Shown piece by piece: positions 15,561 to 37,253 of a stretch of 64,000 bases of DNA. The stretch is from a bacterium (GTDB lineage Bacteria; Planctomycetota; Planctomycetia; Planctomycetales; Planctomycetaceae). The translations under genes and the position numbers were made by a program. The stretch covers positions 44,848 through 108,847 of the forward strand of contig WGMU01000068.1 of the NCBI GenBank assembly GCA_016124895.1, written 5' to 3'. Positions within the stretch are counted from its first letter, which is position 1. Each line of letters starts with the position of its first letter. The notes under the pieces are model-generated. The model worked only from the letters and a program-made list of their open reading frames with translations. It was not told the DNA's origin and searched no databases.

Positions 15561-15618
15561 GCGAAACTCGCGAAGGGTTTCGGTTCATTGTCAGGCCGAA
15601 ACTCTCCGCGAGTTTCGC
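15561..15618. repeat. Long near-perfect inverted repeat between the PLD-like and LarA-like genes
   Basis: Arms 15561-15583 and 15596-15618 (23 bases, about three mismatches) flank a 12-base loop. On the minus strand it follows the end of the PLD-like gene by 30 bases and precedes the LarA-like start by 32 bases. It could terminate the upstream transcript. The loop contains the ATG of the alternative longer LarA-like frame. Confidence 0.6.
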
Positions 15619-15648
15619 TGCGACGACTGACGAACGCGTTGCTCTACT

Positions 15649-16344
15649 TTAAAACGGGTCGCACGAGTTCCACAGTTTGTCGAACTCCCGCCGAAATGGT
15701 CCAACGAGTCGCGGGTCGCCGGTGACGATCAGGTTCTCCGAATTGTACTCGGCGGCCGACCGCGTCCAGTTATAGCTGCCGGTGACCAGCCGGGCATCGT
15801 CGAACAACGCGAACTTATGGTGCATGTGGTAGCTGGTCCGGTCGATACGGACAGGGATGCCGGCTCGCGCCAGACGGGCCGCATCCGAACCTTCGTCATT
15901 CGCTTTATCGTTGTCGGTAACGACGTGAACGGCGACGCCGCGAGCGTGTGTGTCGAGGATCTCCGTCGTGATCCGGTTGTCTGTCACCGTAAACACGCAG
16001 ATATCGACACTCTCCCTTGCCGTCCGCAACAGACCGACAATGCGATTCCAGCAGGCGTCACCCGGACTGAAACACGCATCGGCCTCGTGTCCGGTCGAGT
16101 CCCCGGCTGCCGCGCGTCTCAATACGCCCGTCACGTCACGCAGCCACTCAAGAACGTCTGAGACATTCGTCGCATCGACCGCCTGCTCGGCGAGTTCAAA
16201 CGCGACCTTCTGTAGCAGGACGAGGTCCGCTTCCGACTGTGAAGCCTCATCCAGCCGGCTGCTCAACGCCCGCTTTTCAGTTCGCGACAGTCGGTAATCG
16301 TCGAGCGTGTCACTGAGCAGTTTTCGCAGTTCGTCGGGAGTCAT
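15649..16344 (-). CDS. Phospholipase D-like nuclease with single HKD motif
   Basis: A 231-residue soluble protein. Residues 1-90 are a helical, charged N-terminal region. The C-terminal half is a PLD-fold domain with one catalytic H-x-K-x4-D motif (HHKFALFD, near 190) and GSYNWT after it, as in Nuc endonuclease and PLD6-like proteins, which dimerise to complete the active site. A nuclease or phosphodiesterase activity is expected; the substrate is unknown. The ATG at 16344 is chosen because the open frame further upstream (to 16530) runs through a repeat-like element and is not protein-like. Confidence 0.8.
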   Translation of the reverse strand: MTPDELRKLLSDTLDDYRLSRTEKRALSSRLDEASQSEADLVLLQKVAFELAEQAVDATNVSDVLEWLRDVTGVLRRAAAGDSTGHEADACFSPGDACWNRIVGLLRTARESVDICVFTVTDNRITTEILDTHARGVAVHVVTDNDKANDEGSDAARLARAGIPVRIDRTSYHMHHKFALFDDARLVTGSYNWTRSAAEYNSENLIVTGDPRLVGPFRREFDKLWNSCDPF

Positions 16345-16410
16345 CGTGACGGCTTTTGTCAGAACAGATCGTGGGGCGGGCAGATTCTCTGCTGACAATG
16401 CAGTCGTCTG

Positions 16411-16501
16411 ACGCAAAGTCGCAAAGACGTCGAGAAACGCAAAGTACAGCCAGGTTCGTTTTCGCAAATTGTCTGTGGACCTGGACATGTTTGTCTTTGC
16501 G
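16411..16501. repeat. Degenerate inverted-repeat element (GCAAAGAC type)
   Basis: CGCAAAGAC at 16420-16428 and GTCTTTGCG at 16493-16501 form a nine-base inverted repeat. The surrounding bases are similar in style to the element at 46780-46941. It fills most of the 235-base gap between the PLD-like and ABC genes. Confidence 0.35.
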
Positions 16502-16579
16502 GGAAAGACGGAAGACTTCATCTCCACCACCTCGCGAACCTTCGCGTCTCTGCGGCCGCGTCTGTCTGGTCTGAATCTG

Positions 16580-18139
16580 TCATCGGATCGCCAGGTTCAT
16601 GATGTCTTCCTGCGTGGCTGACTCGACATCGGTAATCTCGCCAGTCACGCGGCCTTCGTGCATCACGATGATGCGGTCGGCCATGCCGAGCACTTCGGGC
16701 AGCTCGCTGCTGATCATCAGGACGGCCTTGCCATCGGCGGCGAGCTGCTGCATCAGCAGGTAGATCTCGTACTTTGCTCCGACGTCGATGCCGCGCGTTG
16801 GTTCGTCGAAGATGACGACTTCAGCGTTGCGCTCAAGCCATTTCGCCAGAACGACCTTCTGCTGATTTCCGCCCGAGAGGTTTCCCGCCCGCTGGTCCGG
16901 GCTCGAAACACGGATGCGGAGCTGTCCAACATAACGCTCAAAAGCCGAGCGTTCTCGACGTCGATCAATCACTCCGCCATGCGAAAACGACAGCAGGTTC
17001 GGCAGGCCGAAGTTCTCCAGTACGCTGCGATTCAGCACGAGCCCCTGATGCTTGCGGTCTTCAGTCAGCAGGCAGATGCCCGCACGAATCGCATCACGCG
17101 GACTGCGGATCGACAATTCGCGGCCATCCAGTTTGATCGTTCCTGAGGCGCGCTGATCGGCTCCGAAGATCAACCGCACGGTTTCCGTTCGACCGGCTCC
17201 AACCAGTCCGGTCAACGCGACGATCTCGCCGCGCCGTACGGCAAAAGAAACGTCCTGCACGTCGTGACCGCGGTTCAGGTTCGAGACAACCAGTCCCTCG
17301 CCTGGGTTACGGTCTTCAGCCAGCGGCTCGCGATGAGGAAACTCGTTTTCGAGTTTGCGGCCGACCATCAGTTCGATGATCGACTCGCGTGTCAGTTCGC
17401 TGATCGGCCGAGTCGCGACGTGTTCGCCGTCGCGGTAAATCGTCGCCCGGTCGCAGATCTCGAAGATCTCATCGAGGCGATGGCTGACGTAAACGATGCC
17501 GATGCCCTGCGACTTCAGTTCGCGGATGATCCGGAACAGGCCCTCGACTTCGCGCGGCGACAGTGCGGCGCTTGGCTCGTCCATGACGATGATCCGCGAT
17601 TCGAGCAGCAGGGCTTTGGCGATTTCGACGACCTGCTGCTGTGCGACGGTCAGCCGGCGGATGAGTGATTCCGGATTGAGATCGACGCCCAGCCGCTCGA
17701 ACAGTTCGCGCGTCTTTTGGCGTTCTTCCCGGACCGGCAGGATGCCGATGCTGGAACGCTCCTGACCGAGGAAGATGTTCTCCCGCGCGGTCATCGCCGG
17801 GACGAGATTGAATTCCTGGTAAATGACCCCGACGCCGGCCCGCTGCGAATCGGCTGGACTGGCGATCTCGACAGAATGACCGTCGATTTCGATCGAGCCT
17901 TCGTCCGGTCGATGAGCCCCGCCGAGCACCTTGATCAGTGTGCTCTTGCCAGCCCCGTTTTCACCCAGCAGGGCATGAACCTCGCCGGGGAGCAGGTCGA
18001 GTTCAACCCCCTTCAGCGCCCGCACGCCGGGAAACGACTTGACGATCCCACGCATCGACAGCAACGGGGCAGAAGTGGCAGTGGCGGAATCGGTCACGGG
18101 CGATCTCGATCGAACATCCACGAATCGAAGGTCGAACAA
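16580..18139 (-). CDS. Sugar ABC transporter ATP-binding protein, two fused ATPase domains (RbsA/MglA type)
   Basis: A 519-residue protein with two ABC domains in tandem, normal for ribose/galactose/xylose-type importers. Domain one (about 25-260) has Walker A GENGAGKST, Walker B IIVMDEPSAAL, and a degenerate signature (LTVAQQQ). Domain two (about 285-515) has the degenerate Walker A GLVGAGRTE typical of the family, a good signature LSGGNQQK and Walker B VVIFDEPTRGID. It energises import at the inner membrane. The start may instead be GTG at 18097. It follows the binding-protein gene by 126 bases, but no permease gene is adjacent, which is unusual. Confidence 0.93.
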   Translation of the reverse strand: MFDLRFVDVRSRSPVTDSATATSAPLLSMRGIVKSFPGVRALKGVELDLLPGEVHALLGENGAGKSTLIKVLGGAHRPDEGSIEIDGHSVEIASPADSQRAGVGVIYQEFNLVPAMTARENIFLGQERSSIGILPVREERQKTRELFERLGVDLNPESLIRRLTVAQQQVVEIAKALLLESRIIVMDEPSAALSPREVEGLFRIIRELKSQGIGIVYVSHRLDEIFEICDRATIYRDGEHVATRPISELTRESIIELMVGRKLENEFPHREPLAEDRNPGEGLVVSNLNRGHDVQDVSFAVRRGEIVALTGLVGAGRTETVRLIFGADQRASGTIKLDGRELSIRSPRDAIRAGICLLTEDRKHQGLVLNRSVLENFGLPNLLSFSHGGVIDRRRERSAFERYVGQLRIRVSSPDQRAGNLSGGNQQKVVLAKWLERNAEVVIFDEPTRGIDVGAKYEIYLLMQQLAADGKAVLMISSELPEVLGMADRIIVMHEGRVTGEITDVESATQEDIMNLAIR

Positions 18140-18169
18140 TTCAGTGATTCAGAGTTGACAGAATAATGC

Positions 18170-18251
18170 GGGGCAGAATGACGAAGTGCAGAATTGTTGA
18201 GAGACTCTGTCCGCGTCGCACTGAAATCATTCTGCCCCGAATCATTCTGCC
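18170..18251. repeat. Intercistronic palindrome (GGCAGAATGA type)
   Basis: Twelve-base arms 18170-18181 (GGGGCAGAATGA) and 18227-18238, with a further copy of the right-arm core at 18242-18251. It lies between the binding-protein gene and the ATPase gene of the ABC transporter, where hairpins often protect the binding-protein mRNA. Confidence 0.55.
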
Positions 18252-18265
18252 AATTCCCGCTCCGA

Positions 18266-19321
18266 TTATTCGGCAGTTGCTTCTGCGGCAGGCTCGGAAG
18301 CGGCGCCGCTGAGTTCCGGGTCGGTTTCGGCGTCGGCTTTGCGGTACAGTTCGGTCGGGATGAGTTCGACCTGCTCGAACTCTTCGCCGTCCAGATATTT
18401 GATGATGTTCTGCACCGAGACCGCGCCCATCTTCCTGGGGAACTGAATCGGGTCGGCGTAAATCTTCCCATCGCGGATCGCCTGTTTGCCTTCGAGTTGT
18501 CCGTCGAAACCGACGATGGTGATCGTGTCGGTTTTGTTCGCCTGCCTGAGCGCCGTCCAGGCTCCCAGGGCAGACGGGTCATTGATGGCGAAGATGCCTT
18601 TCAGATCCGGATGGGCCTGCAGTGCGTCCGAGGTCGCGCGAAAGCCTTCGTCCTGCAAACCGCCGCCTTCGAGTTCCGCAACAATCTCGATCTTCCCGTT
18701 CTCGCGGTCAGCGTTGTGCGCCTCGATGACTTCGCGGAATCCCTGAACCCGCAGCACACACGAGTTCGCCTGTTTGAAGTGCAGAATGAGGACCTGGCCA
18801 CCGTCCTCGCCGAGTGCTTCGATCATCGCGTCGCCAGCGAGCTTGCCGCCCTGGAAATTATCTGTGCCGATGTGTCCGGCGATTCTGGCATCCTCAGCAG
18901 TGCATTGCAGATCGCAGGTGAAAACAGGGATGCCGGCGTCGTTGGCTTTACGGATCGCCGGGCCGATCGCCAGACGGTCGGCCGGATTCAGTACGATTGC
19001 CGTGACGCCCTGGGCAATGTACGCGTCGATGTGTTTCGACTGTTCGCTGACGTCGCGCGCGGCATCGTTGACGACAACGGTGAAACCATTCTTCTCCGCT
19101 TCCTGAGTCATACTGTCGGCGATGATTTTGAAGAACGGATTCTTCAGTTCGAGCGCCGAGAACCCGATCGTGCCGCGTGATTCCGGTGCGAGCGTCTCTG
19201 CCGGCGCACCGGTCTCGACTCCGCTGTGACCGGATGGAGTTGTCGATTTCGAGCAGCCGACGGCGTAAGTCAGCAGTCCACTGAGCAGGAAAAACCACAT
19301 CAGACAACCGGGACGATTCAT
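18266..19321 (-). CDS. Sugar-binding lipoprotein of ABC transporter (RbsB-like, periplasmic binding protein)
   Basis: A 351-residue protein. The ATG at 19321 has GAGGA nine bases upstream. The N-terminus is a lipoprotein signal (FFLLSGLLTYAVGCSKS); Cys would be lipidated, though the residue at -3 is Ala rather than Leu. The mature part is a type I periplasmic binding protein: IGFSALELKNPFF, then VTAIVLNPAD, GHIGTDNFQGGKLAG and FAINDPSALGAW are characteristic of ribose/galactose-type receptors. It delivers a sugar to the importer whose ATPase is at 16580-18139. The specific ligand is unknown. Confidence 0.92.
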   Translation of the reverse strand: MNRPGCLMWFFLLSGLLTYAVGCSKSTTPSGHSGVETGAPAETLAPESRGTIGFSALELKNPFFKIIADSMTQEAEKNGFTVVVNDAARDVSEQSKHIDAYIAQGVTAIVLNPADRLAIGPAIRKANDAGIPVFTCDLQCTAEDARIAGHIGTDNFQGGKLAGDAMIEALGEDGGQVLILHFKQANSCVLRVQGFREVIEAHNADRENGKIEIVAELEGGGLQDEGFRATSDALQAHPDLKGIFAINDPSALGAWTALRQANKTDTITIVGFDGQLEGKQAIRDGKIYADPIQFPRKMGAVSVQNIIKYLDGEEFEQVELIPTELYRKADAETDPELSGAASEPAAEATAE

Positions 19322-19463
19322 TATGGGAATCCTCATGAAAGGAAGGTCTGTCATTCAGTAGCGGGCGAGCTTAGCGCTGCGGGTCCTCTCCGGCAAATCC
19401 CGGCACCTTGGCGCAATGTCGCTGCTGTATCGATCGATCGTGGTCGATGACCATCTGTCACAA

Positions 19464-21935
19464 TTACTCGAAGCCAGACTCGCGAGCCGGCAGAAAGCGG
19501 TAGACGGTGTCGATGATCCGCTGGTGATGTTTCGTCCGTCCGACCGTATTGCTCTGCATCAGCAGTACGCCGGAAAGATCGCGGTCGAAGTCGATCCATG
19601 CGACCGGGCCGGAATAGCCGGGGTGTGAGAGCCAGCGTGAGTGGCCGTTGACATTGCTCTCGTGAATCTGAAACGCCAGGCCATAACGGCTGTCGGTGCC
19701 AGGCTGTGACTCGTAAAGCTGACGCAGTGTTTCCGCGCGGATCAGTTGCTGGCCGTTGTGCATTCCGCGATGCAGATGAAGCTGCATCAGGACGCCCAGA
19801 TCATCGAGTGTTGAATACACGCCGCCGCCGGCCGTCGACAGCCGCTTGTTCTGCCGCTCGGCGACTTCCAGTCCGAACGGGTCCGGCTCAAAGACGTGTG
19901 GCTTTTTCGACTGATACAGCGGGGCGAGCCGTTTCAATTCGGCCGCCGTCGGCTGGATCGTCGAGTCGTGCAGACCGAGCGGTTTGAAAACCCGCTCCTG
20001 CATGAGTTGGATAAACGTCTGCCCGGTCTGCTTCTCGGCGACGCAGGCACACAGGTCGATCGGGCGACCGTACATCATCTTCGTTCCCGGTTCAGACACC
20101 AGACCGAGCTGCACGCACGCGGTGACGAAGTCCTGCGGCGTCTGCGGGAAGTAGTAGCCTGCGTATTTCGGATCGTCCTGGGCGAAACCGTGCTGCTGCA
20201 TCCAGCCGTCGTTGGGAATGCCGGACGTATGGCTCATCGCCTGCCGCAGAAGCACGGGACGCTGTGGCTTTCCGCCGTCAATCAGCCGGATGTCAGCGAA
20301 CTCGGGAAACGTCTTCGAAATCGGGTCGTCGAACGAAACAACGCCGTCGTCGACCAGTCGAGCCATCAGCGTGGCCGTAAAGATTTTGCCGGTCGAGGCC
20401 AGCCAGCAGAGTTCATCCACTGTGAACGGCGCCTTTGTTTTGAGGTTCGCAACACCGTGCGCTTCCCGCATAACAACCTGATCGCGATGGATCAGCAGGA
20501 TCGAGATGCCGGGGTAGTAACCTTCGTTGATGACTGCGTTGATCTCGGCACGAATAGCCGCGCGAGCTTCGTTGGTCAGTATTGCGGAAGCGGTCGATGA
20601 CTCATTGTCACTCAGCTTCTTCAATCGAATGCGGCGATACTCCATCTGACCACGGTCACCTTCGAGTCCGATTGGGCCGGTTTCGGGCACCACCAGGTCG
20701 TCGGTCAGCAGTTCGCCGTTGCAGGTCGCGCGAGCGACTCCGCCTTCCACCGTGACGACCAGTTCGTTCCAGTCGCCTTCGCGGAACCGCTGCAGCTCGG
20801 TGTACGGTCCGGCGAGCAGATAGTCGCGGCACTGAAGCTGCGGCTTGCGGATGAAGACTCCACTGTCGGCGTTCGGCGTTGCGCGGAACTCCAGTTTGAG
20901 GACGAAGTCGTCGCCGAATTCCTGAGTCGTCCACAGTTGCTGGATGCGGCGACCTTCGGGCGGCGTCTTCACCACCAGCCGGCCATTGATCGCCGCGTAT
21001 CGCCCGTCACTGCTGACGGTCTTTCCGTCGAACGAAATGGCTTCTGCGACCTCGACAAACACCGGCGCAGAGGGGCGTGGATTCTTCGGCTGCTTGCGTG
21101 GCGGCGTCGGCCGGAATCCCCAGCCGGTCAGGTCGCGGCCGTTGAAGAGACTGACGAAGCCGGGCTCGGGCTGGAAATCGTCCGCTTCGGTTTCGAGGAA
21201 GCCGAGCGTCGCAAACACGGGCCGCAAGGCCGCCGCCCAGCGCTGATAGCCAGCCGCATTCAGATGCAGCAGATCGGGGAAGTATTTCGGATCGGCGTCG
21301 CCTTCCTGATTCGCAAACAGCGTCCAGGTATCGACGACGGTGATCTGCGAATCGCCTTTGACCGTCGCGTCGTAAAGCTGATTGACGTGGTCGATGGTCT
21401 CTTTGGGCCGCTTCTTCTGCGCCGAACTGGGAAACATCCGACACAGCACGATCGGCGTCTGCGGATTGTGCTTCTTGATCGCCTGAATGATCTTCTGGAA
21501 ATTGCGGCCGATCGCCTCGGTGTCGATGCCGACTTCGATGTCATTCGTCCCGGCCAGAATCACGATGGCACTCGGGTTGAGCGCGAGCACGTCCTCGTTG
21601 AGCCGGATCAGCATTCCACGCGTCGTGTCGCCGCCGATGCCGCGGTTGGCGAGCTTCATTCCCGGAAACTGCTCGCGAAACTTCTCGCCCCAGCCCTGCG
21701 TGATCGAATCGCCCAGAAAGACAACGGCCGTCTGATCCTGTTCGATCCGTTGCGCCCACGCGGCACGTGACTCGGCCCAGCGTTTGACGTACCCCTCATA
21801 ACGCCGCAGCGCCCCTTCGCCGGGCAGTCCGTCTTCAGACGTTGGCAACGCAAACCGGTCCGCCGCCAGCAGCGCAGTGTTCAGCAGAGTGAGACAGACA
21901 AAACTTGCGGTGAGGATTCGAGCAAGGTGTTTCAT
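19464..21935 (-). CDS. Three-domain secreted hydrolase: SGNH esterase + DUF1080 + beta-lactamase-like
   Basis: An 823-residue exported protein with a signal peptide at the ATG at 21935. Residues about 40-240 are an SGNH/GDSL hydrolase: FLGDSITQGW (Ser), GGDT, AGTNDIE and FPDLLHLN (Asp, His). Residues about 255-440 form a 3-keto-disaccharide hydrolase/DUF1080 domain starting SLFNGRDLTGW. Residues about 460-820 are a class C beta-lactamase/penicillin-binding-like esterase with the SxxK motif in LASTGK; the expected Y-x-N appears as YGR, so the second motif is altered. Probably deacetylates and processes carbohydrate substrates in the periplasm. The separate parts are common in planctomycetes. 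Confidence 0.85.
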   Translation of the reverse strand: MKHLARILTASFVCLTLLNTALLAADRFALPTSEDGLPGEGALRRYEGYVKRWAESRAAWAQRIEQDQTAVVFLGDSITQGWGEKFREQFPGMKLANRGIGGDTTRGMLIRLNEDVLALNPSAIVILAGTNDIEVGIDTEAIGRNFQKIIQAIKKHNPQTPIVLCRMFPSSAQKKRPKETIDHVNQLYDATVKGDSQITVVDTWTLFANQEGDADPKYFPDLLHLNAAGYQRWAAALRPVFATLGFLETEADDFQPEPGFVSLFNGRDLTGWGFRPTPPRKQPKNPRPSAPVFVEVAEAISFDGKTVSSDGRYAAINGRLVVKTPPEGRRIQQLWTTQEFGDDFVLKLEFRATPNADSGVFIRKPQLQCRDYLLAGPYTELQRFREGDWNELVVTVEGGVARATCNGELLTDDLVVPETGPIGLEGDRGQMEYRRIRLKKLSDNESSTASAILTNEARAAIRAEINAVINEGYYPGISILLIHRDQVVMREAHGVANLKTKAPFTVDELCWLASTGKIFTATLMARLVDDGVVSFDDPISKTFPEFADIRLIDGGKPQRPVLLRQAMSHTSGIPNDGWMQQHGFAQDDPKYAGYYFPQTPQDFVTACVQLGLVSEPGTKMMYGRPIDLCACVAEKQTGQTFIQLMQERVFKPLGLHDSTIQPTAAELKRLAPLYQSKKPHVFEPDPFGLEVAERQNKRLSTAGGGVYSTLDDLGVLMQLHLHRGMHNGQQLIRAETLRQLYESQPGTDSRYGLAFQIHESNVNGHSRWLSHPGYSGPVAWIDFDRDLSGVLLMQSNTVGRTKHHQRIIDTVYRFLPARESGFE

Positions 21936-22052
21936 ACGAGTGGACAGCTTTCTCGATGAGCGATTGAGGTCGTTCACAACGTGGGCGACTGAGGGTTCGC
22001 AAGCTCGATCTCAGCCACCCCGGAGAAGAACCGGCGGACGATTCTGACGCGG

Positions 22053-26758: not shown

Positions 26759-29700
26759 CTAAGTCCGATCGCGTCCTTTCGGCGAGACGATTTCTGTCAG
26801 CAGGCTCGTCAGCGGGGCGAGATCACTGGCTGAACCGGGCCTCAGCGGTGCCAGGATGCGGGTTTCATAGCTCGGAATATGGGCCTGTTTTCCACGTTGC
26901 GACTCTGCGTACTGGAGGTGCGGCACATGAAACGGCAGCTTGTGAGATGTGCCCGGTATCTCGTGACGCAGCCGTTCAAACGCGGTGCGGCTATGGACGA
27001 AGACCAGCAACTGCCACCCGTTCTCCGTCACTCGAAAGATGCGGTCCAGTCGCGCGAGTCCGCGAGCGATTGCGGCAATGGTCAGCTCGTCCATCCCGTC
27101 AAATGGATCATCCAGAACCAGCAGCCGCAGGCTGTTGTTCATTCGGATCCCGCTCAGCAGGAACATGGCCAGAGTCCGCGTATTCAATTGCGCCGTGTTA
27201 AACCGCAGAGACGCGTTTTCTTTGTCCCCCGCCGTGCGCCACTCAATGGACATCGCGTCGCGGGGCTCGGCCTGACTCTCTGACCTGGAACCGCTTCCCC
27301 GTTTCTGACGGACAATGAGATCCTCATACGCCCAGCGTGCCGGTGTGAACATTGCCATCAATTCATTGAGTGGGAGATCCGCACGCTCAAGCTGCGCGAT
27401 GAATGAGCGGTTCAGTTGCGAGCGAAGTCTGTCGAGGTCTTTCGCTTCTTTGAGCACTCGTTCGAGCCGGGCGATCATGCTTACTCCGGTACGCGACCGA
27501 TCGCGTCTTAACTGGTCCGGCTGATCGAGCAGTTCGAGCCTGCGGTCGAGTTCCTGCAACTGATCCGTCAGCTCCGCCGCCCAGTTGCCTTCACCGATTG
27601 CAATCTTTCCAAACGCGCGTGGTTCGTGAGAGGCGATCACGTCGCTGATCAACTGGTCCAGAGGGGCCGATGGCCCGTCGACGAGTTGACAAACCAGTTC
27701 AGCGTCATGGCTGACATCCTGCAGCGCTTTAAGCTGCAGCGCCGACAGTCGTGCGGGCCGGGAGCCTGCTGCTTTCGCCGCCGCCAGTGATTCTTCCGCG
27801 GAACTTTTCCGCGGCAGTCTGGCGCAGGCATCCTTCGCTCGGGTCTGCATTTCGTCGCGCCAGCTTTGCAGCCTGGAACCAGATAACTCAATGACGGGGC
27901 GCAGAGACGGCGGGTGAGTCCCCGGAAAAATTTCGCGGGACTCCGCGAGCTTTTCGACCACAGTGCGGACCTGTAGCTGCCGCGTTGCCAGATCTTCTGC
28001 CGCGGTCGTTTCCAGCCACTCATCCAGATCACGCCGAAAGCCCTCATCGTCATGCGAAGACGACCTCTCGATCTGCCAGTCGATCAGTCCATTAAGGACA
28101 GAGACAGCTTCAGCAATCTGCTTGCGGCGTCTGGGAGCCGACGAAATCAGTCCGTTCAGAACACTCTCCAGTTCACTGAGCAAACTGGAGAATGCTTCTT
28201 TGGGAATCTCGCTCTCCATGTGGCCAATCGTGTGAGACAGAGATGGCATCGCTGCATCCAGCACGTCCAGCCGGGACAGCTCTTCGAGGTCCTGAAGCTT
28301 CGGCAACGTCGCCTGCACACAGGCAGTGATCAGGTCGCGCGGCACGGCGGAATTGCGCCGATCCAGCCAGGCCAGCCGGCGGGAAATCGCCTCGGGCTTC
28401 AAAGCGTCGTCAGACAACGGGGCATCGCCGTCGTGATTCGCCAGCCACCGCCAGACAGATTCCGGCAGTTCACTCAGCGCCGTCTGCAGGCTTGTCTGGC
28501 GTTCGGCGAAGTTTCTGCGAAGCGCAATTTCCTCGTTCGGAAAGAACGCTCGTAAAAACGCAGCCGACCGATCAGCTGGCCGGGCATTCGTCAGACGATC
28601 CATCAGCACCTGATCGAGAATAAACGCCAGCCTGTCGATTGGCTCGAAACCCGTTTTCCGGTGATGGGTTCGTTCGTCGAGCTTCAGCGTGCAGACCCGA
28701 GTCTTTCCGTCTGTGGATTTCACTCCGGTCGAACGCTGCAACCAACTGACTCTGGCTGTCGCGACAGCAGCTTCATTCGACTTCCGCACAGTTCGATTCA
28801 CGATGGCTTTCCGGAAGGTGTCGTCATCTTCGACTTCGCCCAGCCGTTCAATTCTGCGGGTCACGGCGTACTCCAGGGCTTCCACAAACGACGACTTTCC
28901 GCTGCCGTTGGGGCCGTGAATGACCTGAACCACGTCCCGCGAATTCGGAGCGGTCCCGTCGTCCGGGACAAACGTCAGTGTTCGTGTCCCCGGCAATCGG
29001 AAGTGATTGACCTCAATGCTCTGCAAGTGCCGATGAATTCGGCGTCCCGTCCGGCCTGAATGCTGATCCGCCTCCGCCACCCACTTCCGAACCTCGATCA
29101 GCAGCCAGGCGAACGCGCGCCGAAAATGTCCACTCCACGCGGCCTTTGTGTCACGGCCCGAAACCGAATCCGCCGACACCGTGGCTGACTCTGGAGCCGG
29201 CAACGCGCGGCTGATGACTCTTTTGAAATCCTCGTCATTCCACTCGGGCGGCCAGACAAATTCATTGATCCCGATCGAGTACAGAAAACTTGTTTGTAAC
29301 TGGATTGCCCGAAAGACTTCGCCAACTTCGGATCTCAGCTCGGGCTGCTTTGCATCGAGGTCGGTGACGAAAACCAGCTCCACAGACCAGACCTGATGCG
29401 TCCGTGCCGTCGCATGATTCAGAAACAGTTGCCGGACATGCGCTGCTTCATCAATGCAGACATTCATCAGCTCGCGCAGCATCTCACGTTCGCCGCCCTG
29501 AAAGTTCGAGTCCTGCCGACGCCAACTCGCTCTGAAATGCTCGCGAATCGGTGACGTCACCAGATACACCAGCCCCAGCGAACCGGTGCAGGGATCGATC
29601 ACCAGCAGGTCAGGATGGATCAGCTTCTGGCCGGCTGCTTTGATTCGGCTGACGCGGATCATCGACGGATTCGTTGTTCCACTCGCCTCTTCGAGCGACT

Positions 29701-29779
29701 TCCGCGGCGCGACGCCGAAACGTTCCAGCGCAAACATCAGCCGCTCAATCCGGTCATTCAGATCAAGAGATGGGCTCAC
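26759..29779 (-). CDS. SMC/RecN-like ATPase, third gene of the TIR-SIR2 operon
   Basis: A 1006-residue protein. Start: GTG at 29779, seven bases after AGGAG and overlapping the previous stop as GTGA; the open frame further upstream lies within the SIR2 gene. Residues 1-260 are a soluble region of unknown function. Walker A GPNGSGKSS is at about 289-297. A long helical middle (about 380-780) resembles an SMC coiled-coil region, rich in Leu/Arg/Glu. At the C-terminus a signature-like LNTRTLAMFLLSG precedes Walker B LRLLVLDDPFDGMD (about 884-897) and an H-loop candidate FVHSRT. This arrangement is that of SMC/RecN/LmuB-type ABC ATPases, which sense or act on DNA. It probably regulates the two NAD-enzyme partners, which is inference. 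Confidence 0.85.
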   Translation of the reverse strand: MSPSLDLNDRIERLMFALERFGVAPRKSLEEASGTTNPSMIRVSRIKAAGQKLIHPDLLVIDPCTGSLGLVYLVTSPIREHFRASWRRQDSNFQGGEREMLRELMNVCIDEAAHVRQLFLNHATARTHQVWSVELVFVTDLDAKQPELRSEVGEVFRAIQLQTSFLYSIGINEFVWPPEWNDEDFKRVISRALPAPESATVSADSVSGRDTKAAWSGHFRRAFAWLLIEVRKWVAEADQHSGRTGRRIHRHLQSIEVNHFRLPGTRTLTFVPDDGTAPNSRDVVQVIHGPNGSGKSSFVEALEYAVTRRIERLGEVEDDDTFRKAIVNRTVRKSNEAAVATARVSWLQRSTGVKSTDGKTRVCTLKLDERTHHRKTGFEPIDRLAFILDQVLMDRLTNARPADRSAAFLRAFFPNEEIALRRNFAERQTSLQTALSELPESVWRWLANHDGDAPLSDDALKPEAISRRLAWLDRRNSAVPRDLITACVQATLPKLQDLEELSRLDVLDAAMPSLSHTIGHMESEIPKEAFSSLLSELESVLNGLISSAPRRRKQIAEAVSVLNGLIDWQIERSSSHDDEGFRRDLDEWLETTAAEDLATRQLQVRTVVEKLAESREIFPGTHPPSLRPVIELSGSRLQSWRDEMQTRAKDACARLPRKSSAEESLAAAKAAGSRPARLSALQLKALQDVSHDAELVCQLVDGPSAPLDQLISDVIASHEPRAFGKIAIGEGNWAAELTDQLQELDRRLELLDQPDQLRRDRSRTGVSMIARLERVLKEAKDLDRLRSQLNRSFIAQLERADLPLNELMAMFTPARWAYEDLIVRQKRGSGSRSESQAEPRDAMSIEWRTAGDKENASLRFNTAQLNTRTLAMFLLSGIRMNNSLRLLVLDDPFDGMDELTIAAIARGLARLDRIFRVTENGWQLLVFVHSRTAFERLRHEIPGTSHKLPFHVPHLQYAESQRGKQAHIPSYETRILAPLRPGSASDLAPLTSLLTEIVSPKGRDRT

Positions 29780-32259
29780 TTCGGTGCTCCTCGATCGCTG
29801 TCCACAGCTTCGCTGTTCGAGAGACACTGGCGAATTCGGAGGATCAGCCGGGAGTCCGGCTTCGACGCTTCCAGCAACCCACCTGCCTGAAGTTTCGCGA
29901 TGTCCCACAGCAACTCCGCTCCGGGGGTCTGCCGGAAATCGCTGTCGGTCTTCTGGCGGCTCTCGTGTTCCTCATCTGGCCACGGTATCGCGGTGTCGGC
30001 CAGACTCCAGACCCGGCGGTCGCGATGCAGGACGATGGAGTCCGCCATCAGTTCCTCGTCCCGGGACGATCTCACTCGAATCACCAGCTCACTCGGCGCA
30101 CTGCCGAGCCGCTCGCAGTTGAATTCAAGCGTCGGACAGAATTTTCTCCACGCATTGTCGTCCGGAGTGCTGGCCGTGCGGAGCGACGCGTCAGAGTCGG
30201 CTGGGTCAAACTTCTGATCGTTCGGCTGTCGATCGACCGGCCAGATCAGTCGCGTCTCGGAGGCCCATCGCGCAAGCCTGTTTTTCGCGAGTTCGTCATC
30301 CTGCGGCCCAAGAGCAAAATGCAGCATCGAGACCATTCGTCGCAGCGCAATTTCAACGACAACACTCCACGCGGCCCACGCCGGACGATCAGCCAGCGGG
30401 AAGTACCACGGAGACTCCCGCAGACATTTTTCAACCTTTGTGCGTTGCGACAGCGTGGGAGATTCGATGGCTTCCGCCAGCGCGAACTCACGCATCAGCA
30501 GCCGATGAAACACCGTGATCCAGGGAGTCAGCCGACGGCACACTTCCGGAGCCCTTTTCCTGCGGTGCGCTCTGGAGGCGGCGTTCTGCTCGGCATCCAC
30601 CATCTCGTCGAACGTCGTGATGACATCCTGAATTTCTTCCACCGGTTGAGGTCCATGCCAGATCGTCCGCGTCACTGACCAGAGGTGCATCTTCAGAATC
30701 TGCCGCTGTTGCTTGCGCATGGCGCAGCGGAAGATCCACTCCTGCAATTCGTCGAGTGTCGGCGTACCACCGCCGGCTCTCCCGCGGTTTTCCATCTGGA
30801 AACTGAATTGATTGGGGTGCTGGCTGAGTCGCGGCAGGCGTTCTCCGACGCTGCGGCTGGCTGACCGCAGGATTTCCATGCCGTGAAACTCGTTCTTCCC
30901 GATCAGGTCCATCAGGAAGGCCGGGGCGAGCTTCGCGATCTCGTCCGGCCGATCAGGCAGCCCGCGAGCAGTTGTGTCGTCTCCGTTGGCCCGGCGATCC
31001 GCCATGTCCTCGTAGACCGACCGGAACGTGTCATGAATGACCGGGTCAGCCGCGCTGTAACCGGCGAACGCGACGGTACGCGTCCTCAGCAGCGTGTAGA
31101 GCAGATCCCGTGACCACGAATCCTCGCGCCAGTTCTGGATCTCACGAAAGGTGAAGACCACCGACTTGAGGTAGTTCTTCCAGTCGCCGACGTGGTGCGT
31201 CGCCTTGCGGTAAGTCTGAGCGCAGCCGTGAATCTTGTAGATCAGCGCGGTCTGGTGAGCCCCTCCGGCATTGAAGAACTGCACGTCTCGCGCGACGCGC
31301 GTGCATTCTGCGTAACGGGTTGCCGGCAGAACCTCGATGTGGCGATCACGGCAGCGGGCTTCCACATTGCGGGCCACGTCGACTTCCGAAGGCACATTGA
31401 GCCGGAATCCGGCCAGCCGGAACGCGCCTTCCAGAAGCAGGTCATAATTCGTCGTCAGCAGCGTTGGACACAACCCCTCGCGAGCCATCCAGGCCAGCAC
31501 GAGATGTCGTGGCCGAATCAGCGCTTTGTCCGGCTGCGCATCTTTCTGAAACTTCATTTCATGCACGGGCCGTTCTGGATCGCCCGACATGATGGCCGCA
31601 TCTTCAAAGCCCATGGTGGCCAGAAACAACGCCTTGCCCATGCAGACGTGATCCCCGAGCGCGAACATGCCACGCAGATTGACGAGCGGCGATGCCGTGA
31701 GGCTCCGGGCCGAATCATCGGTCTCGACTGCCCGCAGCGCCGCATAGAGTGCCCTCTCACGCCGGTTGACGAAGTCCATCACGTGCTTCTCGTCACCCAG
31801 CCGTTCGACCAGAGCCATCAGAATACTGCAGGCATTGCACATCCAGTCGTTCAGCTCGTAATACCGCTGTGTCAGCTTTCGCGCGATCGCCCAGCAGAAC
31901 AGAGGGAACTTCACCGGATTCCCGTACAGATCAGGATCGCTGAATTTCTTCTCGGGATCGAGTTCGTCCCGGCTGATCCAGAACGTTCTGATCATGCCCT
32001 CACGCAGGCTTGCGACTTCTTCGCGACAGCGGGCTTCAAACGCTTCCCCGTCTTTCGGAAGAAGCTGATGCCGCAGTGGCAGATGCTTCTGCAGGAAGTA
32101 TTCACACAGGACATCAAACCGCGCCAGCAGTCGAGCGATGAGCACGGTGCCGGAGTTGCCTTCGCTTTCCAGCGAGTACCCGGCGCCGATGAAGAACACG
32201 ACGTCCCCGTCAATGATCCGCTGCGAGAGCCGGTTTGCCGCGTCCAGCCAGTCCGTCAT
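29776..32259 (-). CDS. Large SIR2-domain protein, second gene of the TIR-SIR2 operon
   Basis: An 827-residue soluble protein. The N-terminal 410 residues hold a SIR2-like NAD-binding domain: VVFFIGAGYSLES (GAG at 25-27), TTNYD (Asn 271), KIHGC (His 344) and AFAGYSAADP (near 397). Asn and His match the catalytic pair of NAD-cleaving SIR2 domains in defence proteins such as ThsA and DSR2. The remaining 400 residues contain Trp-rich helical stretches with no recognised domain; residues 490-640 look like an all-helical sensor. The ATG overlaps the TIR gene stop by four bases (ATGA). It is probably an NADase or NAD-binding effector held inactive until triggered, inferred from family and context. 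Confidence 0.88.
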   Translation of the reverse strand: MTDWLDAANRLSQRIIDGDVVFFIGAGYSLESEGNSGTVLIARLLARFDVLCEYFLQKHLPLRHQLLPKDGEAFEARCREEVASLREGMIRTFWISRDELDPEKKFSDPDLYGNPVKFPLFCWAIARKLTQRYYELNDWMCNACSILMALVERLGDEKHVMDFVNRRERALYAALRAVETDDSARSLTASPLVNLRGMFALGDHVCMGKALFLATMGFEDAAIMSGDPERPVHEMKFQKDAQPDKALIRPRHLVLAWMAREGLCPTLLTTNYDLLLEGAFRLAGFRLNVPSEVDVARNVEARCRDRHIEVLPATRYAECTRVARDVQFFNAGGAHQTALIYKIHGCAQTYRKATHHVGDWKNYLKSVVFTFREIQNWREDSWSRDLLYTLLRTRTVAFAGYSAADPVIHDTFRSVYEDMADRRANGDDTTARGLPDRPDEIAKLAPAFLMDLIGKNEFHGMEILRSASRSVGERLPRLSQHPNQFSFQMENRGRAGGGTPTLDELQEWIFRCAMRKQQRQILKMHLWSVTRTIWHGPQPVEEIQDVITTFDEMVDAEQNAASRAHRRKRAPEVCRRLTPWITVFHRLLMREFALAEAIESPTLSQRTKVEKCLRESPWYFPLADRPAWAAWSVVVEIALRRMVSMLHFALGPQDDELAKNRLARWASETRLIWPVDRQPNDQKFDPADSDASLRTASTPDDNAWRKFCPTLEFNCERLGSAPSELVIRVRSSRDEELMADSIVLHRDRRVWSLADTAIPWPDEEHESRQKTDSDFRQTPGAELLWDIAKLQAGGLLEASKPDSRLILRIRQCLSNSEAVDSDRGAPK

Positions 32260-34517
32260 TTCCGCACCTCGTCTGCGACGCGAATCAGACGCCGTTCATA
32301 GACGGTTCGAATCCAGGTGTCCCAGAGAGGCGGCGGTTCGAGCCCTTGCAGCCGCTCGCCGAGCAGTTCGTTCGCGTCGCGCAGCGGCTGGTCGCTGTCC
32401 GGACACAACTCGGCCGCCGCCCGACGAATCTCCTCCGCAGCGTGTCGCATTTCAGTGTACGCCGCAGATTTGCCGTCCCCTCGAAGACTCGACAGCAGCG
32501 TCCACTCGGACCGTCGAGCCGCCACCAGCCGATAAGCCAGCGTCACCAGATCCGGGACTTCCAGATCGACTGGCGAGGCCAGGTTCGGTTTCGGGACACC
32601 ACGGATTTCCGCGAGTCGCGTCTCGGCTTCCAGAATCCGCGGATGATCGCTGTCGAAACTGCTCCGATAGATCTCCAGGGCCCGCATGAACAGCAGCTCT
32701 GCTTCTGACAACCTGCCGTTCGCCTGATGAATCTTCGCCAGCATGCAGAGATCACGGGCATGATCCGGATGGTCTGGTCCCGGCGGCTGTTCACTGATCT
32801 CCGCCGCCCGTCGAGCTTCGGCTTCCGCGCCCGAAAGATCATTCTGCTCGAATAACACCTCAGCCAGCCGGTTCAAGTCACGCGACAACTTCGGATGCGG
32901 TGACGAAAACGACGCCTCGTCAATCTCCAGCGCGCGACGCACATGCCGCTCGGCCTCGTCCAGCTCACCGAGTTCCTGCCGCACTTCAGCCAGTGTGACC
33001 AGCACGTCTGCGAGTTGAGGATGCGGCCCCAGCCAGGTCCTTTCTTGAATCGACAACGCTCGTTCGGCGAGCGGCAGAGCGTCTGCTGTTCGCCCTGCCG
33101 TCGTCAGAAGCCTCGCCAGGTTGTTGAGGCAATTGGCGACGTGAGGATGCTCCATGCCGTAGGCTTGCTCGTCGATCGCCAGCGCGCGACGCAGCAACGG
33201 TTCGGCCTCCACCAGACGGTTCGTGGCAAGGAGCAACTGCGCCAGGTTGTTGAGGCAGTTGGCGATGTGGGGGTGTTCCTTGCCGTAGGCCCGCTCGTCA
33301 ATCGCCAGCGCGCGACGCAGCAGCGGTTCGGCCTCCGCCAGACGGTTCGTGGCAAGGAGCAGCTTCGCCAGGTTGATCAGGCAGTTGGCGACATGGGGGT
33401 GCTCCATCCCGTAGGCCCGCTCGTCGATCACCAGCGCGCGACGCAGCAGCGGTTCGGCCTCCGCCAGACGGTTCGTGTCCAGAAACAACTGCGCCAGGTT
33501 GCTGAGGCCGATGACGACTTTGGGGTGTTCGGCTCCGTAGGACTGCTCGTTGATCGCCAACATGCGACGCAGCAGCGGCTCGGCCTCTTCAAGTTCAGCC
33601 TTCTCGTACAGAATGTGAACTACGTGGCCCATCAGCGCTGCGGTCGGGCTGGTAATTCCATGAGCTTCCGCGTGGGCAATCAGCAATCGCAAATGCGGCA
33701 GGAGAGAGTTCCCCACAGGCCAGCCCCGCACGTGTTCTTCGGGAAGCGCCTCCATCGCGGCATTGAGTGCCGATTGCAGGGACTCCAGCCGCAACTCCTC
33801 TCGGATCGATCGGCGCGTCAACTGCTGGATAACGCTTTCCACCGACAGCGTGGGAGTGTCGGTGTCCTGGACCACCAGCGAGTGCTTGACCAGTTCCGAA
33901 ACAGTGTCTTCCAGCCCGGTGATCAGCGAGAACGGCACCGGAGCAGCCGCCATCCAACTCAGCCGTTGAAGTAGAGCCCGCCCATTTGGGGAAAGCACCG
34001 TTCGTACCTGGTCCCACTGCTTGACCCGTCTGGCAATTCCTTCCAACCGATTCTCAAACGTGATGGCAAGATTCCGGGCCACGATCGATGCGTCAGTCTC
34101 TGTCCGTATGACGGACAATTCGACGTCAGCAAATACTTTGGGAACGTCACCGTTATCGAGTCGAATTGGAAAAATGCGGTCACGCAATTCACCGCCAGAT
34201 TCCCGCAAAAACGCGTCGCGTTCATGCTGGCAGGTTTGAGACGATGCATAAGCCGGGCTGATCACAGGGACAAAAAGCACGGATCGTTCTGCAAACCACA
34301 CTCTGGACTTTTCTTCGCCCTCATGCTTTTTTGAGAACTCCTCATCGAAGATCCGAATGCGATAGTTCCCGAGAAACCCTGTTTCTTGACCACGTTGCAG
34401 CCATCCTTTGAACCAGCGGATCCATCGAGATTCAACTTCGCCACTTGCGAAGCTGACGAAAACGTCGCACTCGAAGGCGGGTTCGAGTTCTGCATTGTCC
34501 AGCAGGAGCAGCACCAT
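32256..34517 (-). CDS. TIR domain + tetratricopeptide repeat protein, first gene of the operon
   Basis: A 753-residue protein. Residues 15-150 are a TIR domain: CDVFVSFASGE (first strand), then PVISPAYASSQTCQHERDAF, where Glu 99 after the Cys fits the catalytic Glu of NADase TIR domains. Residues about 165-290 are a helical, possibly winged-helix linker. Residues about 300-610 are kinesin-light-chain-like TPRs of 42 residues (AEPLLRRALAIDERAYG... NCLNNLAQLLLATNRL), several almost identical even in DNA. The C-terminal 130 residues are unassigned. The first in-frame ATG after an upstream stop is at 34517; no strong ribosome-binding site is seen. TPRs likely bind a partner or trigger, the TIR being sensor-signalling or effector. 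Confidence 0.88.
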   Translation of the reverse strand: MVLLLLDNAELEPAFECDVFVSFASGEVESRWIRWFKGWLQRGQETGFLGNYRIRIFDEEFSKKHEGEEKSRVWFAERSVLFVPVISPAYASSQTCQHERDAFLRESGGELRDRIFPIRLDNGDVPKVFADVELSVIRTETDASIVARNLAITFENRLEGIARRVKQWDQVRTVLSPNGRALLQRLSWMAAAPVPFSLITGLEDTVSELVKHSLVVQDTDTPTLSVESVIQQLTRRSIREELRLESLQSALNAAMEALPEEHVRGWPVGNSLLPHLRLLIAHAEAHGITSPTAALMGHVVHILYEKAELEEAEPLLRRMLAINEQSYGAEHPKVVIGLSNLAQLFLDTNRLAEAEPLLRRALVIDERAYGMEHPHVANCLINLAKLLLATNRLAEAEPLLRRALAIDERAYGKEHPHIANCLNNLAQLLLATNRLVEAEPLLRRALAIDEQAYGMEHPHVANCLNNLARLLTTAGRTADALPLAERALSIQERTWLGPHPQLADVLVTLAEVRQELGELDEAERHVRRALEIDEASFSSPHPKLSRDLNRLAEVLFEQNDLSGAEAEARRAAEISEQPPGPDHPDHARDLCMLAKIHQANGRLSEAELLFMRALEIYRSSFDSDHPRILEAETRLAEIRGVPKPNLASPVDLEVPDLVTLAYRLVAARRSEWTLLSSLRGDGKSAAYTEMRHAAEEIRRAAAELCPDSDQPLRDANELLGERLQGLEPPPLWDTWIRTVYERRLIRVADEVRK
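33154..33570. repeat. 126-base tandem repeats inside the TPR region
   Basis: Units such as the one beginning near 33296 and the next near 33422 are nearly identical over long runs, and partial units continue on both sides. The period of 126 bases equals one 42-residue TPR. The DNA-level identity implies recent duplication or recombination. Confidence 0.8.
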
Positions 34518-34768: not shown

Positions 34769-37021
34769 TCACTGCAACAGCGTCAGAGTTGGATGGGCAG
34801 CGCACCTGGCGGTCACCTGGCCAATGACGGCTGACTTGAAATCGGAATCTTCGGCGGCCGTCAGAGTTGACAGCTTGTCGGCAGCGATGCCGATTAAGAG
34901 TCCGCCCGACGTTTGCGGATCAAACAGAGCGCGCCACCGGGGACTGCGTTCGAGTTCCTCTGTTCCGCCGGTAATTCGGTCGGCGACGTTGCGGTTGGCA
35001 GGAGCGAGAGTGCTTTCAACGCCAGCGGCCGACAGCTCGGCGAAACCATCAAGCAGCGGCAGGCTCTGCAGTGAAACTTCGGCAGCGACGCCACTGGCGT
35101 CGAGCATCTCGAACAGGTGACCGGCCAGGCCGAAGCCGGTCACATCGGTCATGGCCGTCGCTCCGGCGGCGCGGGCAGCCGTTGCCGCGCGAGCGTTTGC
35201 CTGCAGCATCGTCTGCAGCATTCGATCAACCCAGACAGCTTCTGCCTTCGCCAGAGGAATGCCTGCGAGCAGCGTGCCGGTTCCCAGTGGCTTGGTCAGA
35301 ACGAGCAGATCACCGGGTTGCAGACCCGACTTGCGGAGCGGCAACTGCTCATCAAGCGACCCGAGTACCGTAAAGCCGATACTCAGTTCGCTGCCTTCGG
35401 TTGTGTGTCCACCGAGCAGTTCGACTTCGGCCGTGTCGAATTCGGCCAGACTGCCGGCCAGCAACTGATAGAGCAGTTCAGACTGCTGTCGCGGCACACC
35501 TTCCGGAAGCTGGACGGTCGCCAGCGCCGCGAACGGCCTTCCGCCCGTTGCCCACAGGTCACTCAGCGCGTTCAAGGCTGCGACGCGACCAATGAGCCAC
35601 GGGTCATCCAGAAACGGCTGGAAGAAGTCGACGGAGATCAGCTCGGGGGTTCCGGCCTGAGGATCCAGCCAGGCGGCATCTTCAGGAGCCTGCAGAGCCC
35701 GATGCTGCACTCTGGAACTGACCGTCCGCGACTCACTCAGCCGCTCAAACGCCGCCCGCAGGACGTTCGCGCCGGCTTTGCCTCCGCAGCCACGACAGCG
35801 CATCTGAGGCGTCCCGGAGTTCGCGTCGGCCAAGACCGCAATCGTCGACGGACGCGATATCGGCGACATCGGACGGTAGTCCTGATACATCCGCATGAAT
35901 CTGCGGTCGATATGATCCTTGTACCGCCAGCACCAGCGCCCCGACGCGGCGAGCCGTTTGTAATTCAGAAAGGCACCACCCTCGCCATCCGCCAGCAGCG
36001 AGAGGAAGCCGGGCTGCGGTACGTATGGCTGCAGCGGTTCGTTTCGCAGAAACCGCTGCAGGTTCTCCCACAGAATCGGACCTTCGCGGACGGCATAGAC
36101 GCCGGACTTCGCAACGGGCGAGTCGATCAGCGATGCGGAATCGCCGACAGCAAACACGGGAAGGCCGGACGTCGAACGCAGCGTCAGATCAACAGCCAGA
36201 AACCCATCATCGGCTTTCGGAAGCTCGGTGCTCTGAATCAGTGCCGACGGCGATGCACTGGTCGCCCAGACGACGAGGTCGGACGGCAGCGAGGTTGCAT
36301 CGGACAGTTGAAGCTGTTGCGAGTCGATATCAACAACTCGGACCGACGACCGCACTTCGATGCCGCGACGTTTCAATGCGCCGGCAACGCGCTTTACTGT
36401 GCCGGGCAGATACCCGCGAAGGATCGATTCGCCGGAATCAACCAGCGTGACGTGTGCCGCAACCTTCTGGTGTCGCAGCACTGCTTCGAGGCACAGGCAG
36501 ATTTCGATGCCCGCTGCACCAGCACCGGCAACGACGACTCTGACCGGCGAGTCAGCCGAGGAGCCGCGGCCTGCGCGCTGCAGATCAGCAAGCCGTGTTG
36601 CCAGCCGCTGCCGGAACGTCGCCATCGGTTTGATGAGCAGGCAGCCTGCGACATCGCTCCAGCGATCGCCGCCTGCGGGAACCGAGCCGACCCCGACAGA
36701 CGCCACGTCGAAACGGATCGGCGCACGGTCGCGGAAATGAACACGCTGCCGCCTGGCGTCGATCCGCAGCGCCTCGTCAATGATCAGTCGCACGCCACTC
36801 GGAGCCGCAAACCGCCAGAGGTCGATCTCCATTTCTGCGGGCTGATACAGACCGGCCAGCGTACCGGGAAGCATTCCGGAATAAGTCGCTCGACTGAACG
36901 GTGAGATCAGCGTCAGCCGAGTTTCCGGCAGCGGACTCATCCGCCACATCCGGACAATGTGCATGTTCGTATGGCCGGCCCCAACAAGCACAATATCCCG
37001 GCTGGGAAGTCGTTCATCCAT
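34769..37021 (-). CDS. selD: NADH dehydrogenase-like FAD protein fused to selenide, water dikinase
   Basis: A 750-residue fusion. Residues 1-400 are a pyridine-nucleotide-disulfide oxidoreductase-type domain: VLVGAGHTNMHIV (FAD) and VVVAGAGAAGIEI (NAD), with VFAVGDSA. Residues about 415-750 are SelD, which makes selenophosphate from selenide and ATP: RGCGGKAG (Cys and Lys of the active site), SVDFFQPFLDDPWLIGRVAALNALSD-type region, LLGGHTTEGSEL and TDVTGFGLAGHL. Cys replaces selenocysteine, so no TGA recoding is needed. The FAD half may reduce selenium species, as inferred from the fusion. The ATG at 37021 fits the FAD motif. Start of a longer frame at 37090 is less likely. Confidence 0.92.
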   Translation of the reverse strand: MDERLPSRDIVLVGAGHTNMHIVRMWRMSPLPETRLTLISPFSRATYSGMLPGTLAGLYQPAEMEIDLWRFAAPSGVRLIIDEALRIDARRQRVHFRDRAPIRFDVASVGVGSVPAGGDRWSDVAGCLLIKPMATFRQRLATRLADLQRAGRGSSADSPVRVVVAGAGAAGIEICLCLEAVLRHQKVAAHVTLVDSGESILRGYLPGTVKRVAGALKRRGIEVRSSVRVVDIDSQQLQLSDATSLPSDLVVWATSASPSALIQSTELPKADDGFLAVDLTLRSTSGLPVFAVGDSASLIDSPVAKSGVYAVREGPILWENLQRFLRNEPLQPYVPQPGFLSLLADGEGGAFLNYKRLAASGRWCWRYKDHIDRRFMRMYQDYRPMSPISRPSTIAVLADANSGTPQMRCRGCGGKAGANVLRAAFERLSESRTVSSRVQHRALQAPEDAAWLDPQAGTPELISVDFFQPFLDDPWLIGRVAALNALSDLWATGGRPFAALATVQLPEGVPRQQSELLYQLLAGSLAEFDTAEVELLGGHTTEGSELSIGFTVLGSLDEQLPLRKSGLQPGDLLVLTKPLGTGTLLAGIPLAKAEAVWVDRMLQTMLQANARAATAARAAGATAMTDVTGFGLAGHLFEMLDASGVAAEVSLQSLPLLDGFAELSAAGVESTLAPANRNVADRITGGTEELERSPRWRALFDPQTSGGLLIGIAADKLSTLTAAEDSDFKSAVIGQVTARCAAHPTLTLLQ

Positions 37022-37253
37022 GCGGTCAGTCTCAGAGCAGCGTCGACATGAGTTCGTCGGGATCGAAAAACCGCCCGACAACTGGTTCATGGGAGGTTCA
37101 GCAGGTCAGGCTGAAGCGAGTGTATCGAATCGTTGGATTGTGCAGACAGAGACTGCAGCTTCCGCTTGACGAGCACCCGACCTCTGCCGCCCGCACGTCC
37201 TATTCTCCTCACACCAGGCGAGTCGCCGCGCAGGCTGTCGCTCGCGCTGATCA

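Follow-up and report, generated by a model that had tools for sequence, protein, structure and literature searches.

A candidate anti-phage gene family pairing a SIR2 protein and a Rad50/SMC-type ATPase with variable first genes that share a C-terminal adaptor

A three-gene operon in a Planctomycetaceae genome

The window analyzed here, a 64,000-nucleotide stretch of contig WGMU01000068.1 (positions 44,848 to 108,847 of the forward strand, assembly GCA_016124895.1) from a bacterium of the Planctomycetaceae, carries three minus-strand genes that likely constitute an unrecognized anti-phage system. The first, termed the head gene (window positions 32256..34517, 753 amino acids), overlaps with the four bases ATGA the gene for a SIR2 protein (29776..32259, 827 amino acids), which in turn overlaps with GTGA the gene for a Rad50/SMC-type ATPase (26759..29779, 1006 amino acids). 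An earlier reading of the bare sequence, here called the original prediction, had described a tightly coupled operon of TIR-TPR, SIR2 and SMC-like genes, and we confirm its coordinates and its four-base overlaps, with all motifs intact. The open reading frame (ORF) of the ATPase extends upstream to a GTG at 29908, but the start at 29779 agrees with the N-termini of its homologues. None of the three proteins reaches the cut-off of an NCBIfam model.

The head protein consists of a TIR domain, a winged-helix-like remnant, TPR repeats and a C-terminal adaptor. The TIR domain (residues 19-132, 34122..34463, minus strand, as are all features of the operon) passes the cut-off of Pfam TIR_2 with 30.3 bits against 28, and contains Glu99 (about 34221-34223), which we take to be the catalytic position of TIR domains. 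The Glu99 column is invariant across eight aligned TIR or TIR-like heads of the family, in an alignment that is loose, with only 13-23% identity to the window protein, and that includes the head of locus L012 and leaves out that of L038. A weak DUF7779-like stretch follows (residues 203-241, 33795..33911), matching Pfam at E 0.0083 with 16.8 bits, short of the cut-off of 27. In the head of locus L006 this domain comes after NB-ARC, for which the window head gives no Pfam match at E ≤ 0.1. Six stretches matching TPR_12 (E 2.6e-65) cover about residues 310-640 (32598..33590), and the adaptor, which contains LAYRLVAAR and PPPLWDTW, lies at 32259..32570. The adaptor has no Pfam match and is recovered at E 2e-13 by a hidden Markov model (HMM) trained with this sequence left out.

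The SIR2 protein matches Pfam SIR2_2 with 58.9 bits (cut-off 24.5) and no other Pfam domain. The SIR2 domain reaches to about residue 520 and contains Asn271 and His344; the remainder is predicted to be mostly helical. Of 30 aligned homologues (drawn from 120 listed, the best of 250), 29 carry the same residues at Asn271, Asp273 and His344, and the remaining row is gapped at these positions. The protein thus has the feature expected of SIR2 effectors, a SIR2 fold with catalytic Asn and His, and is predicted to be an NADase. Its family profile finds no relative in the PDB by sequence below E 0.05.

The ATPase matches Pfam AAA_23 with 36.1 bits (cut-off 27), and its AF2 model (pLDDT 77) retrieves Rad50 and SMC heads in fold searches. 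Its Walker A motif GPNGSGKS (residues 289-296, 28892..28915), signature-like motif FNTAQLN (residues 860-866, 27182..27202) and Walker B motif LLVLDDP (residues 886-892, 27104..27124) contain residues that are identical in all 30 members aligned out of 98 homologues, namely Lys295, Asn861 and Ala863, and Asp890 and Asp891, respectively. The residue after the Walker B Asp is usually the catalytic Glu. In this family Asp-Asp replaces Asp-Glu, and the second Asp is present throughout the 30 homologues. The conserved active sites expected in the original prediction are therefore found in the SIR2 homologues, in the Walker motifs of the ATPases and, within the loose alignment noted above, in the eight TIR heads.

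Ahead of the ATPase head lies an N-terminal alpha/beta region (residues 1-245, 29045..29779) of predicted strands and helices that is conserved in the family, with Glu134 invariant and Arg116 present in at least 90% of the 30 homologues. This region has no Pfam match and no convincing sequence match in the PDB, and lies outside the part covered by fold searches with the whole ATPase model. The order of its strands suggested a PD-(D/E)XK-like reading, for which profiles and PDB sequences gave no support. Ninety-three of the 98 ATPase matches are 800-1208 amino acids long, a range that includes the window protein.

A conserved SIR2-ATPase pair

Wherever both genes are visible (18 of 18 loci, including the window), the ATPase gene directly follows the SIR2 gene. 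When the best 120 of 250 SIR2 homologues are compared with the 98 ATPase homologues, 18 contig-length values, one of them that of the window's own contig, are common to both lists, versus zero or one in shifted controls. The locus is thus not a chance cluster, given this excess over the controls and the adjacency of the two genes. Tight coupling is also indicated at the junction of the first two genes, where the stop codon of the head gene and an in-frame start codon of SIR2 overlap by exactly four bases in 13 of 19 loci.

A pattern-based scan of genomes from 84,980 species yielded 17 loci, of which 16 are strong and come from Azospirillum, Skermanella, Magnetococcales, Acidobacteriota, Myxococcota (Plesiocystis, Enhygromyxa), Verrucomicrobiota, Binatia and Aminicenantes. 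The seventeenth, L019 from Actinomycetota, matches only weakly and in part and was set aside. Fifteen of the 16 strong loci have the ATPase gene immediately after SIR2; in the other, L009 of Plesiocystis, a contig end cuts the SIR2 gene and the ATPase gene sits on a different contig, at its edge. Two loci found later, L038 and L039, have the same gene order. Among 392 genomes of the window's phylum, a protein search returned the window's own genome and one weak match, G096 (locus L002), where no ATPase reaches E ≤ 1e-10. L002 and L019, with weak or partial SIR2 matches, are excluded from all locus counts. Draws of genomes around other loci gave, at E ≤ 1e-30, 1 match in 396 (the seed), 2 in 282 (both known), 2 in 141 (G1105 being new) and 3 in 82 (G1300 being new). 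Since the species scan requires one of two short peptide patterns and the searches of multiple genomes score 2-13 candidates per genome, these frequencies are lower bounds. The gene family is rare and scattered over unrelated bacterial groups.

Variable heads joined to one adaptor

The gene immediately upstream of SIR2 varies among loci. Eight of the 19 heads have a TIR_2 domain above the Pfam cut-off, where it is followed by TPR repeats (the window and L014), by NB-ARC and TPR (L006 and L018, and L038 with a sub-threshold NB-ARC) or by WD40 repeats (L007 and L008), or stands alone (L004). The remaining 11 first genes have other or unknown N-terminal domains: DUF4062 with a sub-threshold TIR in L012, an unknown region before WD40 in L010, a response regulator in L005, a sub-threshold MBL-like domain in L003, and no Pfam match in L009, L011, L013, L016, L017 and L039. 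The head of L015 and the first gene of L005, which appears NtrC-like by eye, were left out of the Pfam scan. The original prediction had named synteny of the whole trio in distant genomes as evidence that would support it. This holds for the adjacency of SIR2 and ATPase, whereas a TIR head accompanies them in only 8 of the 19 loci. Because the first gene has other or unknown N-terminal domains in 11 loci, the constant unit is SIR2 plus ATPase.

Exchange of heads is also apparent among close relatives. In a tree of the 19 SIR2 proteins, 10 of 16 inner branches are open and most deep forks are unresolved, while some sister groups are firm. The sisters L006 and L008 (55% identical, support 100/100) carry NB-ARC-TPR versus WD40 behind TIR, and the sister of L003, which has a subtilase gene and an MBL-like head, is the pair L018 and L038 with their TIR-NB-ARC-TPR heads.

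What nearly all of these first genes have in common is their end. Common to the heads is a C-terminal stretch some 100 residues long and centered on PxPLWxAW (PxPLWxAWM), which the original prediction had missed and which sequence profiles recognize in 18 of 19 heads, L017 being the exception. A variable first gene that nearly always ends in one shared adaptor is a new finding. The segments were initially delimited by eye at the final LWxxW motif, which also guided the choice of upstream frame in L013 and L015. Leave-one-out HMMs, searched against whole proteins with E-values calculated for about 1,576 sequences, recover 15 of 17 adaptors at E 2e-6 or better and that of L015 at 1e-4, and fail with L017 (E 1); the training sets retained close kin of L009, L011 and L013.

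In the ORFs and genomes searched, adaptor matches fall at these genes. A profile built from 15 loci, run against the 1557 ORFs of loci L001-L019, gives 16 matches at E < 0.05. Each is a head gene (the 15 profile members and L015), and the profile also finds the later heads of L038 (4.7e-21) and L039 (2.4e-4). A second profile of 13 rows, searched against 19 whole genomes with 150 of up to 234 candidates scored in six of them, gives exactly one match in 17 genomes, each at the head gene beside SIR2. Thirteen of these 17 supplied profile rows, and those outside the profile are G398 (E 8.3e-8), G399 (4.0e-9), G404 (1.1e-3) and G1300 (4.4e-22). In the window genome the adaptor is the sole match at E ≤ 0.01 to a profile that includes the window row, and among the 392 genomes of the phylum it was found only in the window's own, where the rows covered had no more than 12 scored candidates for each genome. 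No Pfam model describes the domain. A protein search with the adaptor region of L004 returned a single protein, 100% identical to the query, and offers no wider census of heads. Downstream of the L004 operon (L004:10242-14874, plus strand) are two TIR-TPR-like ORFs that resemble the window head; as controls, they give no match to the adaptor profile at E < 0.05.

Distances among the proteins were correlated over 16 of the 19 loci, without the near-duplicates L038 and L013 and without L009, whose ATPase is on another contig, and are not corrected for shared ancestry. SIR2 and ATPase distances correlate with r = 0.88. Adaptor distances correlate with those of SIR2 at r = 0.53 (p 4e-4) and of the ATPase at 0.40 (p 0.007), and the first 150 head residues at 0.22 (p 0.04) and 0.14 (p 0.15), respectively.

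The diversity of heads bears on a relay of the Thoeris type, in which the ATPase would act as the trigger and the TIR head would make a cyclic ADP-ribose signal that activates the SIR2 NADase. Such a relay would fit the eight heads with TIR above the cut-off, the ThsB_TIR model whose cut-off L008 also passes, the Glu retained in the aligned heads, and the identity of SIR2 as the enzyme of ThsA effectors (PMC11204291). Nevertheless, we regard it as improbable. The 11 loci with other or unknown N-terminal domains, even with the sub-threshold TIR of L012 among them, do not agree with the obligate TIR-SIR2 signal-effector pair that the original prediction had proposed, and a dedicated adaptor suggests contact and not a diffusible signal. 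ThsA profiles match the SIR2 part alone, with marginal SIR2 and ThsA matches in PADLOC that for ThsA cover only residues 328-413 (E 0.0016-0.0028). Residues 500 to about 665 are predicted to be helical, and a Thoeris-type SLOG domain is not evident in the window protein from ThsA profiles or Pfam, both of which address sequence only. Thoeris (SIR2-SLOG ThsA with the TIR protein ThsB) and the window operon are alike in joining TIR and SIR2, and differ in that the window family has an ATPase gene wherever this is visible, an optional TIR and a head adaptor. With TIR optional in the family, the TIR-SIR2 relay was set aside as the main model, and the evidence points instead to a modular system of a fixed core and exchangeable heads on a dedicated adaptor.

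Some neighboring genes merit mention in their own right. The subtilase gene of the Azospirillum locus L003 (L003:6791-8725, plus strand) precedes the MBL-like head, which may make this a version of four genes that includes a protease. The operon of L006 lies between genes for a serine recombinase and a HicB-like antitoxin (L006:3878-5197 and 14904-15311), hinting at mobility. The Verrucomicrobia operon L017 is flanked by a caspase-like (Peptidase_C14) gene and a 1546-amino-acid SIR2_2 protein (L017:6903-8729 and 15334-19974, both minus strand), an arrangement that looks like a defence cluster. In the window, an oxidoreductase/SelD fusion gene (34769-37090, minus strand) matches TIGR04369 over nearly its whole length with 408 bits, below the cut-off of 700, and an unusual fusion at 19464-21977 (minus strand) joins GDSL lipase, 3-keto-disaccharide hydrolase and beta-lactamase-fold domains.

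Relation to known systems and a proposed mechanism

None of the three outcomes that the original prediction had named as counting against it (homologues usually apart, a match to a named system, unconserved active sites) occurred. PADLOC gives no convincing match for the window proteins: the head matches zero families at E ≤ 0.1, although the ATPase matches LmuB at E 6.8e-16, locally around the P-loop. No description of a TIR, SIR2 and Rad50/SMC trio was found in the literature searched, which does not prove its absence from print. A 2023 review of shared defence domains (PMC10952713) lists TIR, Sir2 and SMC systems without this combination in the sections covered, nor is the trio described in the corresponding parts of PMC11084316, PMC12265719, PMC10586767 and PMC7159879.

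The main rival to a distinct modular family is divergent Lamassu (ABC-3C), in which the upstream gene would encode an effector like LmuA that docks through its C-terminus, with the ATPase as LmuB and SIR2 in the middle position of LmuC. According to PMC10586767, the N-terminal effectors of LmuA are variable and include TIR and SIR2, the C-terminus docks, LmuC lies in the middle, and LmuB, of about 650 amino acids with its head at the N-terminus, has a Walker B Glu-to-Gln change described as general. In common with Lamassu, the window operon has a Rad50/SMC-like ATPase, an upstream protein that varies across the family and has a putative docking region at its C-terminus, and an altered Walker B Glu; the replacement here is Asp, which might have a similar effect. 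In addition, LmuB profiles match all 30 ATPase members (best E 3.1e-19), and Foldseek hits of the ATPase model include 9hqu_A at E 2.5e-6 and 9ux7_A at E 6.3e-4, both of them chains from Lamassu. The PADLOC LmuB profiles span 610-1213 positions, and the longest, PDLC03861, which 16 of the 30 members match, has some 200 positions before its P-loop part, a layout like that of the window ATPase. The region before the ATPase head therefore may not be a difference. Even so, the LmuB match of the window ATPase is confined to the surroundings of the P-loop, and Rad50 and SMC heads match it as well as or better than the Lamassu chains in fold searches. The window head has no LmuA match, an LmuA profile matches only 1 of 30 SIR2 proteins (7.9e-5), and a constant 827-amino-acid SIR2 protein stands where a small LmuC, which some Lamassu systems lack, would be expected. 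Filing the operon as Lamassu was rejected after an LmuA relation (by sequence profile), a small LmuC and a Walker B Gln were each looked for and not found. We thus consider a Lamassu origin unlikely, though it is the strongest of the alternatives, and the family is best filed with SMC-plus-effector immunity, as a variant.

Other known systems share single elements with the family. The SIR2 effectors of SPARSA, SIR2-HerA, DSR2 and Kongming (KomC) have a different gating partner. Bacterial NLR-like TIR-NB-ARC-TPR proteins have the same build as the heads of L006, L018 and L038 (the latter with its sub-threshold NB-ARC), and the window head resembles one without NB-ARC; the family heads differ in ending in the adaptor and in overlapping the SIR2 gene. 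Effector-associated domains of MoxR-vWA conflict systems are likewise small non-enzymatic connectors of variable parts to a core, but are described as acting by two copies meeting (PMC7159879), whereas the adaptor is found once per genome here.

On balance, we lean toward a modular family in which a constant SIR2 and Rad50/SMC-type pair, likely a DNA-sensing NADase core, receives a variable head that the adaptor is predicted to dock. Once a phage infects, this machinery would destroy NAD+ and thereby cut phage growth short. This reading is carried by the adjacency of the pair, the conserved active-site and ATP-binding residues, the shared adaptor and the different heads on sister SIR2 proteins, all of them features of sequence. 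Several observations weigh against it. LmuB matches throughout the ATPase family are compatible with a Lamassu origin. A Pfam scan of 14 window ORFs flanking the operon shows ordinary genes, none of them of a defence or mobile kind, and no local island; no relatives were found in viral contigs or phage records, and a plasmid search gave one weak match covering 26% of SIR2. L009, L011 and L013 are related, as are L018 and L038, and do not count as independent loci. The kin retained in leave-one-out training and the lack of correction for shared ancestry in the distance correlations temper those results. L017 has no detectable adaptor and that of L039 is weak, and both genomes give zero matches in the whole-genome adaptor search. 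Finally, the response-regulator head of L005 could mean a non-phage input.

The last point would suit a module for cell death or growth arrest triggered by stress or DNA damage, with the heads as general signal inputs. The ordinary flanks of the window operon and the rarity of the family are also consistent with such a role, which we nonetheless judge very improbable given the TIR, NB-ARC, WD40 and TPR heads and SIR2 domains that are closest to defence enzymes. Six hand-picked, and so not systematic, neighbors further favor defence, namely a nucleotidyltransferase (L005), the recombinase and HicB-like genes (L006), a PIN domain (L007) and the caspase-like gene and second SIR2 (L017).

If the family is a modular defence system, the SIR2-ATPase pair is most likely an NADase restrained by a Rad50-like DNA clamp. 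The ATPase might bind foreign or damaged DNA or DNA ends, as Rad50 and LmuB are thought to do, and Asp in place of the Walker B Glu could slow hydrolysis to give a latch-like ON state. The head, in the window a TIR domain with a repeat sensor, would serve as the input module docked through the adaptor, which probably contacts SIR2 rather than the ATPase because adaptor divergence tracks that of SIR2 a little better. On infection, the head, the ATPase or both would free SIR2, leading to a drop in NAD+ and a halt to phage growth. Defence would thus act by NAD+ depletion, to which the window TIR might contribute as a second NADase.

More tentatively, the family may represent a new immune platform, with one SIR2-Rad50-like killing core whose docking port accepts TIR-NLR, TIR-WD40, response-regulator and MBL-like hydrolase heads through a single adaptor, such that a swap of heads retargets NAD destruction. 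The operon permits a direct test of whether exchanging the sensor retargets one effector core, and the adaptor HMM together with the SIR2-ATPase pair provides a search handle for more heads. If our interpretation is correct, TIR or NLR-like sensors, SIR2 NADases and Rad50/SMC-type DNA machines would be joined in one operon. This arrangement would reveal how immune parts are wired, through an exchangeable head and a fixed adaptor, and would help to place Lamassu-like and Thoeris-like systems within one framework.
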